Positions 4,318-61,738 of a DNA stretch of 64,000 nt are shown here, in pieces. The translations under genes were made by a program, and so were the position numbers. Each line of letters opens with the position of its first letter. Within the stretch, counting starts at the first letter, position 1. Origin of the DNA: Pantoea deleyi (GTDB taxonomy: Bacteria > Pseudomonadota > Gammaproteobacteria > Enterobacterales > Enterobacteriaceae); assembly GCF_022647325.1 (NCBI RefSeq), contig NZ_CP071405.1, forward strand, positions 2,976,001 through 3,040,000, written 5' to 3'. The notes beneath the pieces are model-generated. The model ran no database searches. It worked only from the letters and a program-made list of their open reading frames with translations, and was not told the origin of the DNA.

Positions 4318-5013
4318 ATGAAACGCGCGGTTGTTGTTTTCAGCGGTGGACAGGATTCCACCACCTGCCTGATCCAGGCTCTGCAGCTTTATGATGAAGT
4401 CCACTGCGTCACCTTCGACTATGGACAGCGCCACCGGGAAGAGATCGAGGTGGCACAGGCGCTGGCGATAACGCTGGGCGCGCGCGCGCACAAAGTGCTG
4501 GACGTCACCATGCTGAACGAACTCGCCGTCAGCAGTCTGACGCGGGATAACATTCCGGTGCCGGCTTACGATCCTGCGGCCAGCGGGTTGCCCAGCACCT
4601 TCGTCCCCGGACGCAACATTCTCTTCCTGACGCTGGCCTCGGTTTACGCCTATCAGGTTGAGGCGGAAGCGGTGATCACCGGCGTCTGCGAAACCGATTT
4701 TTCCGGCTATCCTGACTGCCGCGATGAGTTTGTCAAAGCTCTGAACCAGGCGGTTACGCTGGGCATGGCGCGCACCATCCGTTTCGAGACGCCGCTGATG
4801 TGGCTCAATAAAGCGGAAACCTGGGCGCTGGCGGACTACTGGCAGCAGCTCACCCTGGTGCGCGAGCAGACGCTGACCTGCTACAACGGCGTGAAAGGCG
4901 ACGGCTGTGGTGAGTGCGCAGCCTGTCATTTACGGGCCAGAGGTTTACAGGCGTATCTCGACGACCGGCCGGGCGTGATGGCCGCCATGAAGGCAAAAAG
5001 CGGCCTGAACTGA
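4318..5013 (+). CDS. queC: 7-cyano-7-deazaguanine synthase QueC
   Basis: QueC converts 7-carboxy-7-deazaguanine to preQ0 in an ATP-dependent step of queuosine biosynthesis. The 231-residue product starts [14 protein letters not shown], which places the PP-loop SGGQDST at residues 9-15. A C-terminal cysteine cluster (CGECAACH) is the zinc site. The ATG at 4318 is preferred over an in-frame upstream start at 4222 because the PP-loop then sits at its usual distance from the N terminus and the upstream residues overlap ybaE. The later queuosine genes queA and tgt lie at about 42 kb in this window. Confidence 0.96.
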
Positions 5014-5025
5014 CACCGTCCGGGC

Positions 5026-5057
5026 ACGGCGGCAGATCCTTCCTGGCTGCCGCCTTT
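5026..5057. terminator. Hairpin between convergent queC and fadM
   Basis: An inverted repeat GGCGGCAG/CTGCCGCC occupies most of the 49-bp convergent gap and is followed by a short TTT. The weak T-tract makes it a moderate terminator candidate for queC; it could also serve fadM. Confidence 0.5.
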
Positions 5058-5062
5058 CCGGC

Positions 5063-5467
5063 TCAGACCATCAGGCGCATCAGACGCTCGCGGAGTTCCC
5101 CTTCCAGCGCAACCGCCTTCTGGGTGTGCAGATCGATGCAGACAAAGGTCAGCGCAGCATCCGCCACCACGGTCTCCTGTCCTGCCAGCATCACCCGCTG
5201 CGCAATGATGCCGCTCCTGCCATTTAACTGGGTGATCTCACTCTCTATCGCCAGCACGTCGCCCAGCACGGCCGGGCGACGGTAGTTGATATTGATATTG
5301 ACCACGACGAAAGCCAGCTTCTGCTCCAGCAACCAGTGAAATGCCTCGACCTCTTCCAGCCATTGCCAGCGCGCCTCCTCAAGAAACTCAAGATAGCGCG
5401 CATTGTTGACGTGCTGATAGACATCCAGATGATAGCCGCGCACTTTTATTGTGGTCTGCATGGTCAT
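5063..5467 (-). CDS. fadM: Long-chain acyl-CoA thioesterase FadM
   Basis: This 134-residue single hot-dog-fold thioesterase of the YbgC/4HBT family has the active-site region DVYQHVNNARYLEFLEEARW near residue 15-35, containing the conserved Asp. E. coli FadM (YbaW) hydrolyses long-chain acyl-CoAs such as dienoyl-CoA during oleate beta-oxidation. Position between queC and ybaV matches E. coli. It is convergent with queC. Confidence 0.93.
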   Translation of the reverse strand: MTMQTTIKVRGYHLDVYQHVNNARYLEFLEEARWQWLEEVEAFHWLLEQKLAFVVVNININYRRPAVLGDVLAIESEITQLNGRSGIIAQRVMLAGQETVVADAALTFVCIDLHTQKAVALEGELRERLMRLMV

Positions 5468-5561
5468 GCTCTCCTGCTCGCTTAGGTTAACTGGTTGGAC
5501 CTGTTCACTTTAGCAGAGTGGTCTGGCTTCAGGAGATTAAGCATCACCGATGTGTGTTGCC

Positions 5562-59502: not shown

Positions 59503-60156
59503 TCAGCGGGCGCTGACAAGCCTGTAGCGTGGGCCGGTGAGCAATCCGCCCTGCTCGTTGTGCGCCAGCAGACGATCGCTGGTCAGCCCGGCGATGGTGT
59601 GCGCCTTGTCCGTCACATTGTTGGCAATCTGCTTAATCGCCGCACTGACCAGCATCCCGACCAGACCGTTGTTGCCGTTCTGCTGATTATCGTCAGTCGC
59701 GGTGGCGGACCCCTGCCAGAGTTGTTTGCCGCTGCGCAGATCCACCAGCCGCGCGTTCGCCGACACGGTGGTCATACTGTCAATGACCCGGTAACTGCTG
59801 CCATATTCGCTGATGTCGATGTAAAGCGCGCTGTCGGCATGGAAAATCTCATTCAGACGCTTCGCGCTGACCGCCTGGGCGTCGCGGGCGCTGGTCAGGC
59901 CGTTCTGCTGAAACGTCTCTTCGACCACCGCCACCGGGAAGACGTAGTAACCGGCTTCGGCCAGCGGACGCGTGACCAGCGAGGCCAGGCTGTGTGCGGC
60001 ATTAATATCCGGAGACCGGTTCTCTGCCGGCAGCACCAGAATCGAGGCGGGCTTGCTGGCGCGGAACGCACTGTAGTCATAGCTTTTTTTCGGCTGCGCA
60101 CAGCCGGTCAGCAGCAGCACCATCAGCACGCCACTCAGGGCAATCAGTTTATTCAC
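59503..60156 (-). CDS. GNA1162/DUF799-family lipoprotein
   Basis: This 217-residue lipoprotein has lipobox LLTGC with Cys19 acylated, then YDYSAFRASKPASILVLPAENRSPD. That segment is typical of the GNA1162 (DUF799) family, whose fold resembles TolB-N/CsgG-like lipoproteins. It is the third gene of a tight minus-strand run and overlaps the DUF4810 gene by 4 bp (ATGA). Function unknown. The 30-bp gap to sbcC is convergent, with GGGCGCGGC/TGCGCCC forming a small hairpin there. Confidence 0.85.
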   Translation of the reverse strand: MNKLIALSGVLMVLLLTGCAQPKKSYDYSAFRASKPASILVLPAENRSPDINAAHSLASLVTRPLAEAGYYVFPVAVVEETFQQNGLTSARDAQAVSAKRLNEIFHADSALYIDISEYGSSYRVIDSMTTVSANARLVDLRSGKQLWQGSATATDDNQQNGNNGLVGMLVSAAIKQIANNVTDKAHTIAGLTSDRLLAHNEQGGLLTGPRYRLVSAR

Positions 60157-60512
60157 TGCACCACTCCTTGTTTTTTACTCATCAGAAAGTCCATGTAGGG
60201 GGCCGCTTCCGGAAACAGCTGCTTCTCGGTGGCGAACTGGGTGAAGGCTTTGCCGGTGTCGCCGGTTCGGGCATAGAGCAGGCCGAGCTGCGCATGCAGG
60301 CCTGGCGGCACGGGCTGGGCCGCCGCGCGCGCTTTTTCAACATCCAGATTCAGCGCATCGATCTGCTTCATCGGGTCGCCGCCCTGCTGATAAAAGTGCC
60401 AGACCTGTTCCTGATAGTCGCCCCAGTAGTAGATCGTTTTCGGCGCTTTCGGCGCACAGCCTGCCAGCAGCGTCACCGCCATCAGCGCGCCGCTCAGTGT
60501 CATCATCTTCAT
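60153..60512 (-). CDS. DUF4810 lipoprotein
   Basis: This 119-residue lipoprotein has lipobox LLAGC (Cys19), followed by the family segment TIYYWGDYQEQVWHFYQQGG and a TPR-like helical region (HAQLGLLYARTGDTGKAFTQFATEKQLFPE). It is the middle gene of the three-lipoprotein run: 11 bp after the CsgG-like gene, and its stop overlaps the DUF799 start. DUF4810 proteins recur with CsgG-like and DUF799 partners; their role is unknown. Confidence 0.83.
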   Translation of the reverse strand: MKMMTLSGALMAVTLLAGCAPKAPKTIYYWGDYQEQVWHFYQQGGDPMKQIDALNLDVEKARAAAQPVPPGLHAQLGLLYARTGDTGKAFTQFATEKQLFPEAAPYMDFLMSKKQGVVQ

Positions 60513-60523
60513 TGCCTGCTTCC

Positions 60524-61201
60524 TTATTTAACCGGGCGCCACGCGCCGCTGGTGATTCCATCCACTAAATGATCGACCGCTTCGCGAATCGCCAGATCCA
60601 TCACTTTGCCGTTCAGCGTGGAGTCATAGCTGCTGGTGCCGCCGAAGCCGATCACTTCACGCGCAGAGAGCTGGTATTCGCCCGCGCCCTGGGTGCTGTA
60701 GACCACTTCGGAGGTGGTGACATCCACCACGTTCAGATTCACTTTGGCGTAGGCGATCTGGGTTTTGCCGCGGCCCAGAATGCCCCACAGCTGCTGGTCG
60801 CCCACCTCTTTGCGGCCAAACTCGGTGATATCGCCGGTAATGATGTAGTTCGCCCCCTTGATGCTCTGCTGACCGTGCTTAAAGTCAGACTCCTGCTGCA
60901 ACGCCTTCAGGTTGCTGCGATCCAGCACGCTGAAGCGATGGGTCTGCTGCAGATGGGTGATCAGAATGGTTTTGGACTGATTGCCCAGGCGATCAACGCC
61001 ATCCGAGAAGATACCGTTCATGTAGGAGGAGCGGTTATCAAACTGACCGACCGCAATCGGGCTGAGGACGCCCTGATAGACCGGCTGGCTGGCGGCACGC
61101 ACCTGCGGCGCCTGGATAGCATGGGAGGATTCGGTAGCACAGCCGCTGGTCAGCGACGCGGTTAACAAGGAGAGTGCCGCAAAGGCATAATTTTTCTTCA
61201 T
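60524..61201 (-). CDS. CsgG/HfaB-family lipoprotein
   Basis: This 225-residue lipoprotein has lipobox LTSGC (Cys21), followed by a CsgG-type domain: VGQFDNRSSYMNG, FSVLDRSNLKALQQE, GANYIITGDITEF and the C-terminal IREAVDHLVDGI. CsgG forms the outer-membrane curli export pore in E. coli; this one is shorter (277 in E. coli) and no curli genes (csgA/B/E/F) are nearby. The ATG at 61201 begins a proper signal; an in-frame start at 61291 would precede it with unconserved residues. It is the first gene of the run and divergent from a small lipoprotein gene. Confidence 0.86.
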   Translation of the reverse strand: MKKNYAFAALSLLTASLTSGCATESSHAIQAPQVRAASQPVYQGVLSPIAVGQFDNRSSYMNGIFSDGVDRLGNQSKTILITHLQQTHRFSVLDRSNLKALQQESDFKHGQQSIKGANYIITGDITEFGRKEVGDQQLWGILGRGKTQIAYAKVNLNVVDVTTSEVVYSTQGAGEYQLSAREVIGFGGTSSYDSTLNGKVMDLAIREAVDHLVDGITSGAWRPVK

Positions 61202-61354: not shown

Positions 61355-61738
61355 ATGAATTTAATTAATGTAACGAAGAGAATGCTGCCTGGGGTGATGG
61401 TGGCCATGACGCTCAGCGCCTGTCAGCAAGGCGCTGTCACGCAAAAGAATAGCGTGGCCAATCTTTGTGATATCGCTCAGAACCCTGACAGCAAATCCTG
61501 TCACTGGACTAATCAAATGCAGCCGATCCTGAACCGGCAGTTCAGCGATGCGGCGCGCTATGCGGGCCAGCAATGTCTGGTCCGGATGGAGTGGCAGCCG
61601 AGTGGACGGTATGCCGTAACGCAGACCGAAGGCAACGAGGCGCTTTGCCTGCGCGCCTGGCAACTGGTGGCACAGAGCCGCGACCTGCCGCCCCCGCCGG
61701 AGCCGGATCAGCCGGCGTGGTTCGGCTTTGCGCCTTAG
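61355..61738 (+). CDS. Small lipoprotein resembling the C-terminal domain (III) of TolA
   Basis: This 127-residue protein has a lipoprotein signal with LSAC (Cys23), then a domain resembling TolA domain III by eye: YAGQQC-L-R (69-77) against TolA YAGKTC-T-L-R, and EGNEALC (92-98) against EGGDPALC. Cys74 and Cys98 would match the TolA-III disulfide pair. Another Cys pair is at 38 and 49, and a PPPPEPDQ tail follows. TolA domain III contacts TolB/Pal, colicins and phage g3p. It lacks the TolA membrane anchor and helical stalk. It is divergent from the CsgG-like gene and convergent with the AraC-type gene, whose stop is 3 bp past this stop. Possible function unknown. Confidence 0.78.
   Translation: MNLINVTKRMLPGVMVAMTLSACQQGAVTQKNSVANLCDIAQNPDSKSCHWTNQMQPILNRQFSDAARYAGQQCLVRMEWQPSGRYAVTQTEGNEALCLRAWQLVAQSRDLPPPPEPDQPAWFGFAP

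Follow-up and report, generated by a model that had tools for sequence, protein, structure and literature searches.

A conserved lipoprotein operon with a CsgG-family gene, in three-gene and four-gene forms, and its occurrence in Pantoea deleyi without CsgE or curlin repeats

Introduction

Operons of lipoprotein genes that include a CsgG-family member are known in outline, and the idea that they affect permeability or form a pore is not new. Such an operon was described in Acinetobacter in 2011 together with the permeability idea, and the three-lipoprotein operon of the Acinetobacter baumannii island G19 is of the same kind as the one analyzed here (PMC3224125). In Neisseria meningitidis, the counterpart is NMB1164-NMB1163-NMB1162 (GNA1162), in which NMB1162 is the gene of the 4hrv protein and NMB1163 is placed as the DUF4810 gene by its position alone. 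NMB1126/1164 have been named as CsgG family and NMB1124/1162 as lipoprotein (PMC6338130), and NMAA_0892 (DUF799), the unannotated NMAA_0893, and NMAA_0894 (CsgG) are consecutive entries in a table of meningococcal genome regions (PMC5282872).

Operons of this type encode GNA1162 and the CsgG-like NEIS1066, both of which have been investigated as neisserial vaccine antigens. GNA1162 was reported to be surface exposed (FACS) and to resemble TolB and LptE (PMC6497663), NMB1164 and NMB1163 are among the OMV lipoproteins (PMC10097807), and a CsgG-like antigen entry corresponds to NGO0834/NEIS1066 (PMC11306574). In biofilms of Haemophilus parasuis, and likewise in those of Actinobacillus pleuropneumoniae, homologues named NMB1162 and NMB1164 were upregulated (PMC4245831), and a DUF799 protein differed 3.72-fold between OMVs of normoxic and hypoxic A. 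baumannii (PMC10016710). A gonococcal neis1066 deletion was viable and kept its plasmid (PMC10212123), and recombinant NMB1126 bound proteins of endothelial cells by ELISA (PMC6168680). One study of A. baumannii states that H-NS represses both PNAG synthesis and a protein of the CsgG/HfaB family (PMC8446060); that the latter is the protein of this operon is our guess. A Pseudomonas nanopore of the CsgG/HfaB family (PMC12844561) was set aside since, judging from the loop motif printed for it, it appears to belong to the curli type rather than to this operon.

Gene content of the locus

The window, a stretch of 64,000 nucleotides from Pantoea deleyi, carries on its minus strand three consecutive lipoprotein genes in the order CsgG-like, DUF4810, and GNA1162-like:

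60524..61201 (minus): CsgG/HfaB-family lipoprotein, short form, first gene of the operon, 225 aa; PF03783, 93.6 bits (cut-off 20.8)
60513..60523: 11-bp gap between the CsgG-like and DUF4810 genes; in long-form operons an extra small gene occupies the same place
60153..60512 (minus): DUF4810 lipoprotein, predicted small TPR-like helical protein, 119 aa; PF16068, 102.1 bits (cut-off 34.7)
60153..60156 (minus): 4-bp GTGA stop/start overlap between the DUF4810 and GNA1162-like genes
59503..60156 (minus): GNA1162-like (formerly DUF799) lipoprotein, 217 aa, GTG start; PF05643, 275.8 bits (cut-off 25.9)

All three proteins score far over the curated Pfam cut-offs for these families, and the GNA1162-like protein matches the solved meningococcal homologue 4hrv over residues 26 to 186 (E value of 1.8e-56). 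The tight packing described by an initial sequence-only reading of this DNA was correct in coordinates, strand, and spacing, as was its remark that the CsgG-like protein has fewer residues than E. coli CsgG (225 versus 277 aa for the precursor). The same reading had assigned a clear lipobox to each protein, which stands for the DUF4810 protein (LAGC) and the GNA1162-like protein (LTGC), both canonical, but less so for the CsgG-like protein, whose box is TSGC with Thr at -3; in relatives the box is regular (LISGC in L076 and LLSGC in L094). All three lipoproteins have Ala at +2, a residue that under the lipoprotein +2 rule fits sorting to the outer membrane. A consensus scan, which says little, found no promoter on the minus strand.

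Relative to the neisserial and Acinetobacter operons, that of the window is a separate member, set between a gene that we take, by eye, to be sbcC and a divergent TolA-like lipoprotein gene. The closest named proteins and loci, among the matches listed, are mostly from Pantoea and Erwinia. An Acinetobacter contig has a CsgG-like gene, a small gene, and a GNA1162-like gene in the order of the window, and in a gonococcal record the three families follow one another as they do here, with DUF4810 matches in two overlapping frames (L184, about 2611 to 2983), reflecting either gene decay or a sequence error. The divergent gene (61355..61738, plus strand) encodes a small lipoprotein with TolA C-terminal (33.9 bits) and TonB_2 (23.6 bits) matches, both over the cut-offs.

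Linkage across genomes

The three genes were found on one strand and in the same order in all 137 loci collected (134 distinct, as 3 repeat a record already in the set), covering Gamma-, Beta-, and Alphaproteobacteria and, with Prevotella (L161), Bacteroidota. The sequence-only reading had proposed looking at the neighbourhood across Proteobacteria and had named the genes lying apart in most genomes as a finding against it; they were together in every locus, and its reading of a CsgG-family gene free of curli genes is borne out, in a unit that is real and conserved. In a phylum sample of 199 genomes, DUF4810 was present in 18, and the GNA1162-like and CsgG-family genes adjoined it in 18/18. 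A second draw of 398 genomes, overlapping the first, gave 39 genomes over the DUF4810 cut-off, with the three families together in 39/39 loci; this is the linkage figure free of bias from similarity to the window. The GNA frame is incomplete in two of these 39 loci (L061 and L183, the latter at a contig end), and genome G450 was left out of the count as sub-threshold (21.8 bits, in a 603-aa frame).

PF05643 was found in 27 of the 199 genomes: 18 with the trio, 1 cut by a contig end (G085), and 8 whose sole match is a remote domain within long proteins. Remote PF05643-like domains lie in open frames of 588 to 797 aa in L020-L027, L029, and L030, and none of these 3.4-kb loci has a DUF4810 gene; some of the frames look beta-helical by eye, and for L029 and L030 the trio is encoded at another place in the genome. 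For CsgG the converse fails, as a CsgG-family match occurs in 55/199 genomes and the operon in 18 of these.

A scan of named genomes found the trio in 80/80 loci, these being the best 80 of at least 585 candidates by similarity to the window protein and thus biased toward close relatives. Within these best 80, the genera include Pantoea, Erwinia, Pectobacterium, Dickeya, Photorhabdus, Proteus, Yersinia, Serratia, Pseudomonas, Aeromonas, Cupriavidus, and Azonexus, among others. The surroundings of the operon vary with lineage, and among these best 80 of at least 585 loci we found no neighbour gene kept beside the trio that would reveal a cargo. The commonest neighbour families in the same set were sbcC-like (13), AraC-type (13, of which 2 in Pseudomonas), and TolA-like (12, all in Pantoea, Erwinia, Winslowiella, or Izhakiella). 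A regulator-like family, probably paralogues joined by single linkage, lies beside 12 of these 80 in several genera.

A mobile element was considered and rejected. Among 72,556 plasmid records, 12 had a GNA1162 match, and several of these are as large as a chromosome; among 50,697 phage records, 2 had such a match, and the one that we inspected resembles an Acinetobacter chromosome. This record (L159, "Acinetobacter phage MD-2021a") has the trio among the chromosomal-type genes paaJ, aroP, and puuP and looks like mislabelled host DNA.

Absence of curli genes

The sequence-only reading had noted that no curli genes lie beside the trio, and for the families searched this extends to the whole 4.68-Mb genome. 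Whole-genome profile searches, positive for the E. coli control in each case, gave no match for CsgE (PF10627) or for the curlin repeat (PF07012), and the single PF03783 match is the gene of the window. A curli secretion system, understood as CsgG with CsgE and curlin-repeat cargo, is therefore not encoded here, and a connection with curli was rejected for this genome. In turn, E. coli has no DNA match to the operon, and the E. coli control genome has no match to PF05643 or PF16068. In a family sample of 99 genomes (one per genus over 99 genera), PF05643 was found in 16, all with the trio, and CsgE in 20; the two occur together in 3 (G200, G218, and G227) for a chance expectation of 3.2. Trio and CsgE thus co-occur about as often as by chance, and therefore the operon is not associated with curli.

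Two operon architectures

The loci fall into two architectures, and this distinction is new here; we found no published description of it in the excerpts of the literature searched, in which DUF4810 goes unmentioned. In the short form (123/137 loci), the CsgG-like protein ends 97 to 104 residues past an EFGR motif and the DUF4810 gene follows closely, giving three genes. In the long form (13/137; L055-L060, L160-L162, and L180-L183), the tail past EFGR has 184 to 190 residues in 12 loci and 136 in L181. In 13/13, the CsgG-like and DUF4810 genes are separated by an additional open frame. A profile of the extra gene matches 11 of these 13 frames, six used to build it and five independent (L055, L180, L181, L182, and L183). 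The remaining two (L160 and L162, on Polaromonas and Novosphingobium plasmids) are annotated as small hypothetical proteins in the same place. The extra protein has about 80 to 115 aa, mostly with a lipobox, and one of four scanned weakly resembles PEGA, at 15.8 bits for a cut-off of 20.8. The additional C-terminal domain of the CsgG-like protein is weakly FlgT_C-like, and the long form occurs in two phyla, as it is also found in Prevotella. Long CsgG-like proteins in L046, L048, L070, L130, L166, L167, and L169 proved to be start-finding artefacts, their tails past EFGR being those of the short form. L077 was left unclassed; in this locus of Pantoea brenneri LMG 5343, the CsgG-like frame (about 4813 to 5541) stops before the EFGR motif, through gene decay or a sequence error.

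A tree of DUF4810 and GNA1162 with CsgG excluded separates long and short forms with a split support of 1.0; it comprises 51 loci (13 long and 38 short) that we picked for spread, and its rooting gives no direction of change. The simplest reading would be that the C-terminal domain and the extra gene were lost or gained jointly in one change. Such a joint gain or loss suggests that the domain may touch the extra lipoprotein, and their co-presence yields a direct, testable prediction of contact within the complex. In a single case, that of the Novosphingobium plasmid pLA5 (L162), kdsA, KpsF/GutQ-type, and glycosyltransferase genes are found close to the long form, which may hint at a link to surface polysaccharide.

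Predicted folds and the pore question

The predicted fold classes are CsgG/PelC-like for the CsgG-like protein, TPR-like for DUF4810, and TolB-N-like for the GNA1162-like protein. The DUF4810 model is all helical (mean pLDDT of 84.9) and its structure matches are mostly TPR proteins, although weak (best Foldseek E value of 0.11). The CsgG-like protein shares the PF03783 family and the fold with E. coli CsgG, which scores 278.3 bits against the 93.6 of the window protein, at 23% identity in the alignment. The likeness to PelC, the ring lipoprotein of Pel polysaccharide export, comes from fold comparison alone, and no pel genes were noticed among recurrent neighbours of the 80 named loci (best of at least 585). 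Similarity to the flagellar H-ring protein FlgT is sub-threshold.

CsgG-type barrels are oligomeric, with two membrane-spanning hairpins per subunit. A pore of this type, a membrane-spanning ring passing non-curli cargo with the other two lipoproteins as gate and adaptor, has in its favor that the CsgG-like protein best matches the structures of the pre-pore and pore states of CsgG, that one long hairpin (119-137/144-160) is present in the monomer model (mean pLDDT of 67), and that an F/W-G-I at the tip of this hairpin aligns with the F-G-I of E. coli CsgG. However, at the position of the second membrane hairpin the same model has a strand (166-177) followed by a helix, so that the hairpin present in CsgG is not formed. 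The first region is charge-rich (8 to 10 of 31 residues over 46 family members versus 5/34 in E. coli CsgG), whereas the second is no more charged than that of CsgG (5 to 7 of 33 versus 7/32). Both regions are also more conserved (0.91 and 0.92) than residues 46 to 225 overall (0.85), which speaks against a pore. The hydrophobic alternation score of the four strands is 0.84 to 1.88 versus 2.04 to 3.1 in CsgG, and the first hairpin of the long-form L057 scores like that of CsgG; this score was dropped as pore evidence, since the soluble GNA1162 control is equally high (mean of 1.95, standard deviation of 0.96). Taken together, we consider a secretion pore somewhat unlikely.

The sequence-only reading had also raised an LpoB-like alternative, which came out weak, as the protein narrowly misses the PF13036 cut-off (21.6 versus 22.3 bits). 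More broadly, the fold could belong to a periplasmic accessory akin to LpoB, PqiC, or LptE, binding a peptidoglycan synthase, a lipid transporter, or an outer membrane assembly factor and forming no pore. CsgG and PelC rank higher in the structure comparison, the PF03783 score is far over its cut-off, and such a partner gene was not seen kept beside the trio in the 80 named loci (best of at least 585), all of which makes this explanation unlikely. That the three genes are unrelated and together by lineage history alone would fit their patchy presence (16/99 genera of the family) and nothing else, and it is refuted, within the samples examined, by an identical order in 137/137 loci across four lineages with changing surroundings; we regard it as extremely improbable.

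Discussion

The explanation we prefer, tentatively and at somewhat less than an even chance, is that the three genes form one operon for an outer membrane lipoprotein complex, in which a CsgG-like ring, a TPR adaptor, and a GNA1162-like partner would handle a component other than curli. From the conserved linkage and the two architectures, a joint complex of the three proteins appears likely. By analogy with its fold relatives CsgG (a pore) and PelC (a dodecamer ring), the CsgG-like protein would most likely be an outer membrane ring, probably facing the periplasm. The DUF4810 protein would act as a small TPR-type adaptor and the GNA1162-like protein, of the TolB-N/CsgG fold class, as a second lipoprotein, and together they may export, assemble, or stabilize an envelope or surface component. 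A bolder version, which we hold to be doubtful, is an unnamed, widespread outer membrane export or assembly machine moving non-curli cargo, with a four-lipoprotein form, in which the C-terminal domain docks a PEGA-like lipoprotein, and a three-lipoprotein form lacking both, changed together in one step.

The operon of the window is thus a member of a known operon, in three-gene and four-gene forms, whose genes stay together across distant bacterial groups, curli producers and others alike. The CsgG family is named after curli, and genomes may receive credit for curli export from that name alone. In the phylum sample, CsgG proteins of the trio occur in 18/199 genomes, about as commonly as those of at least 172 bits (17 genomes), which are presumed to be of the curli type by score alone.
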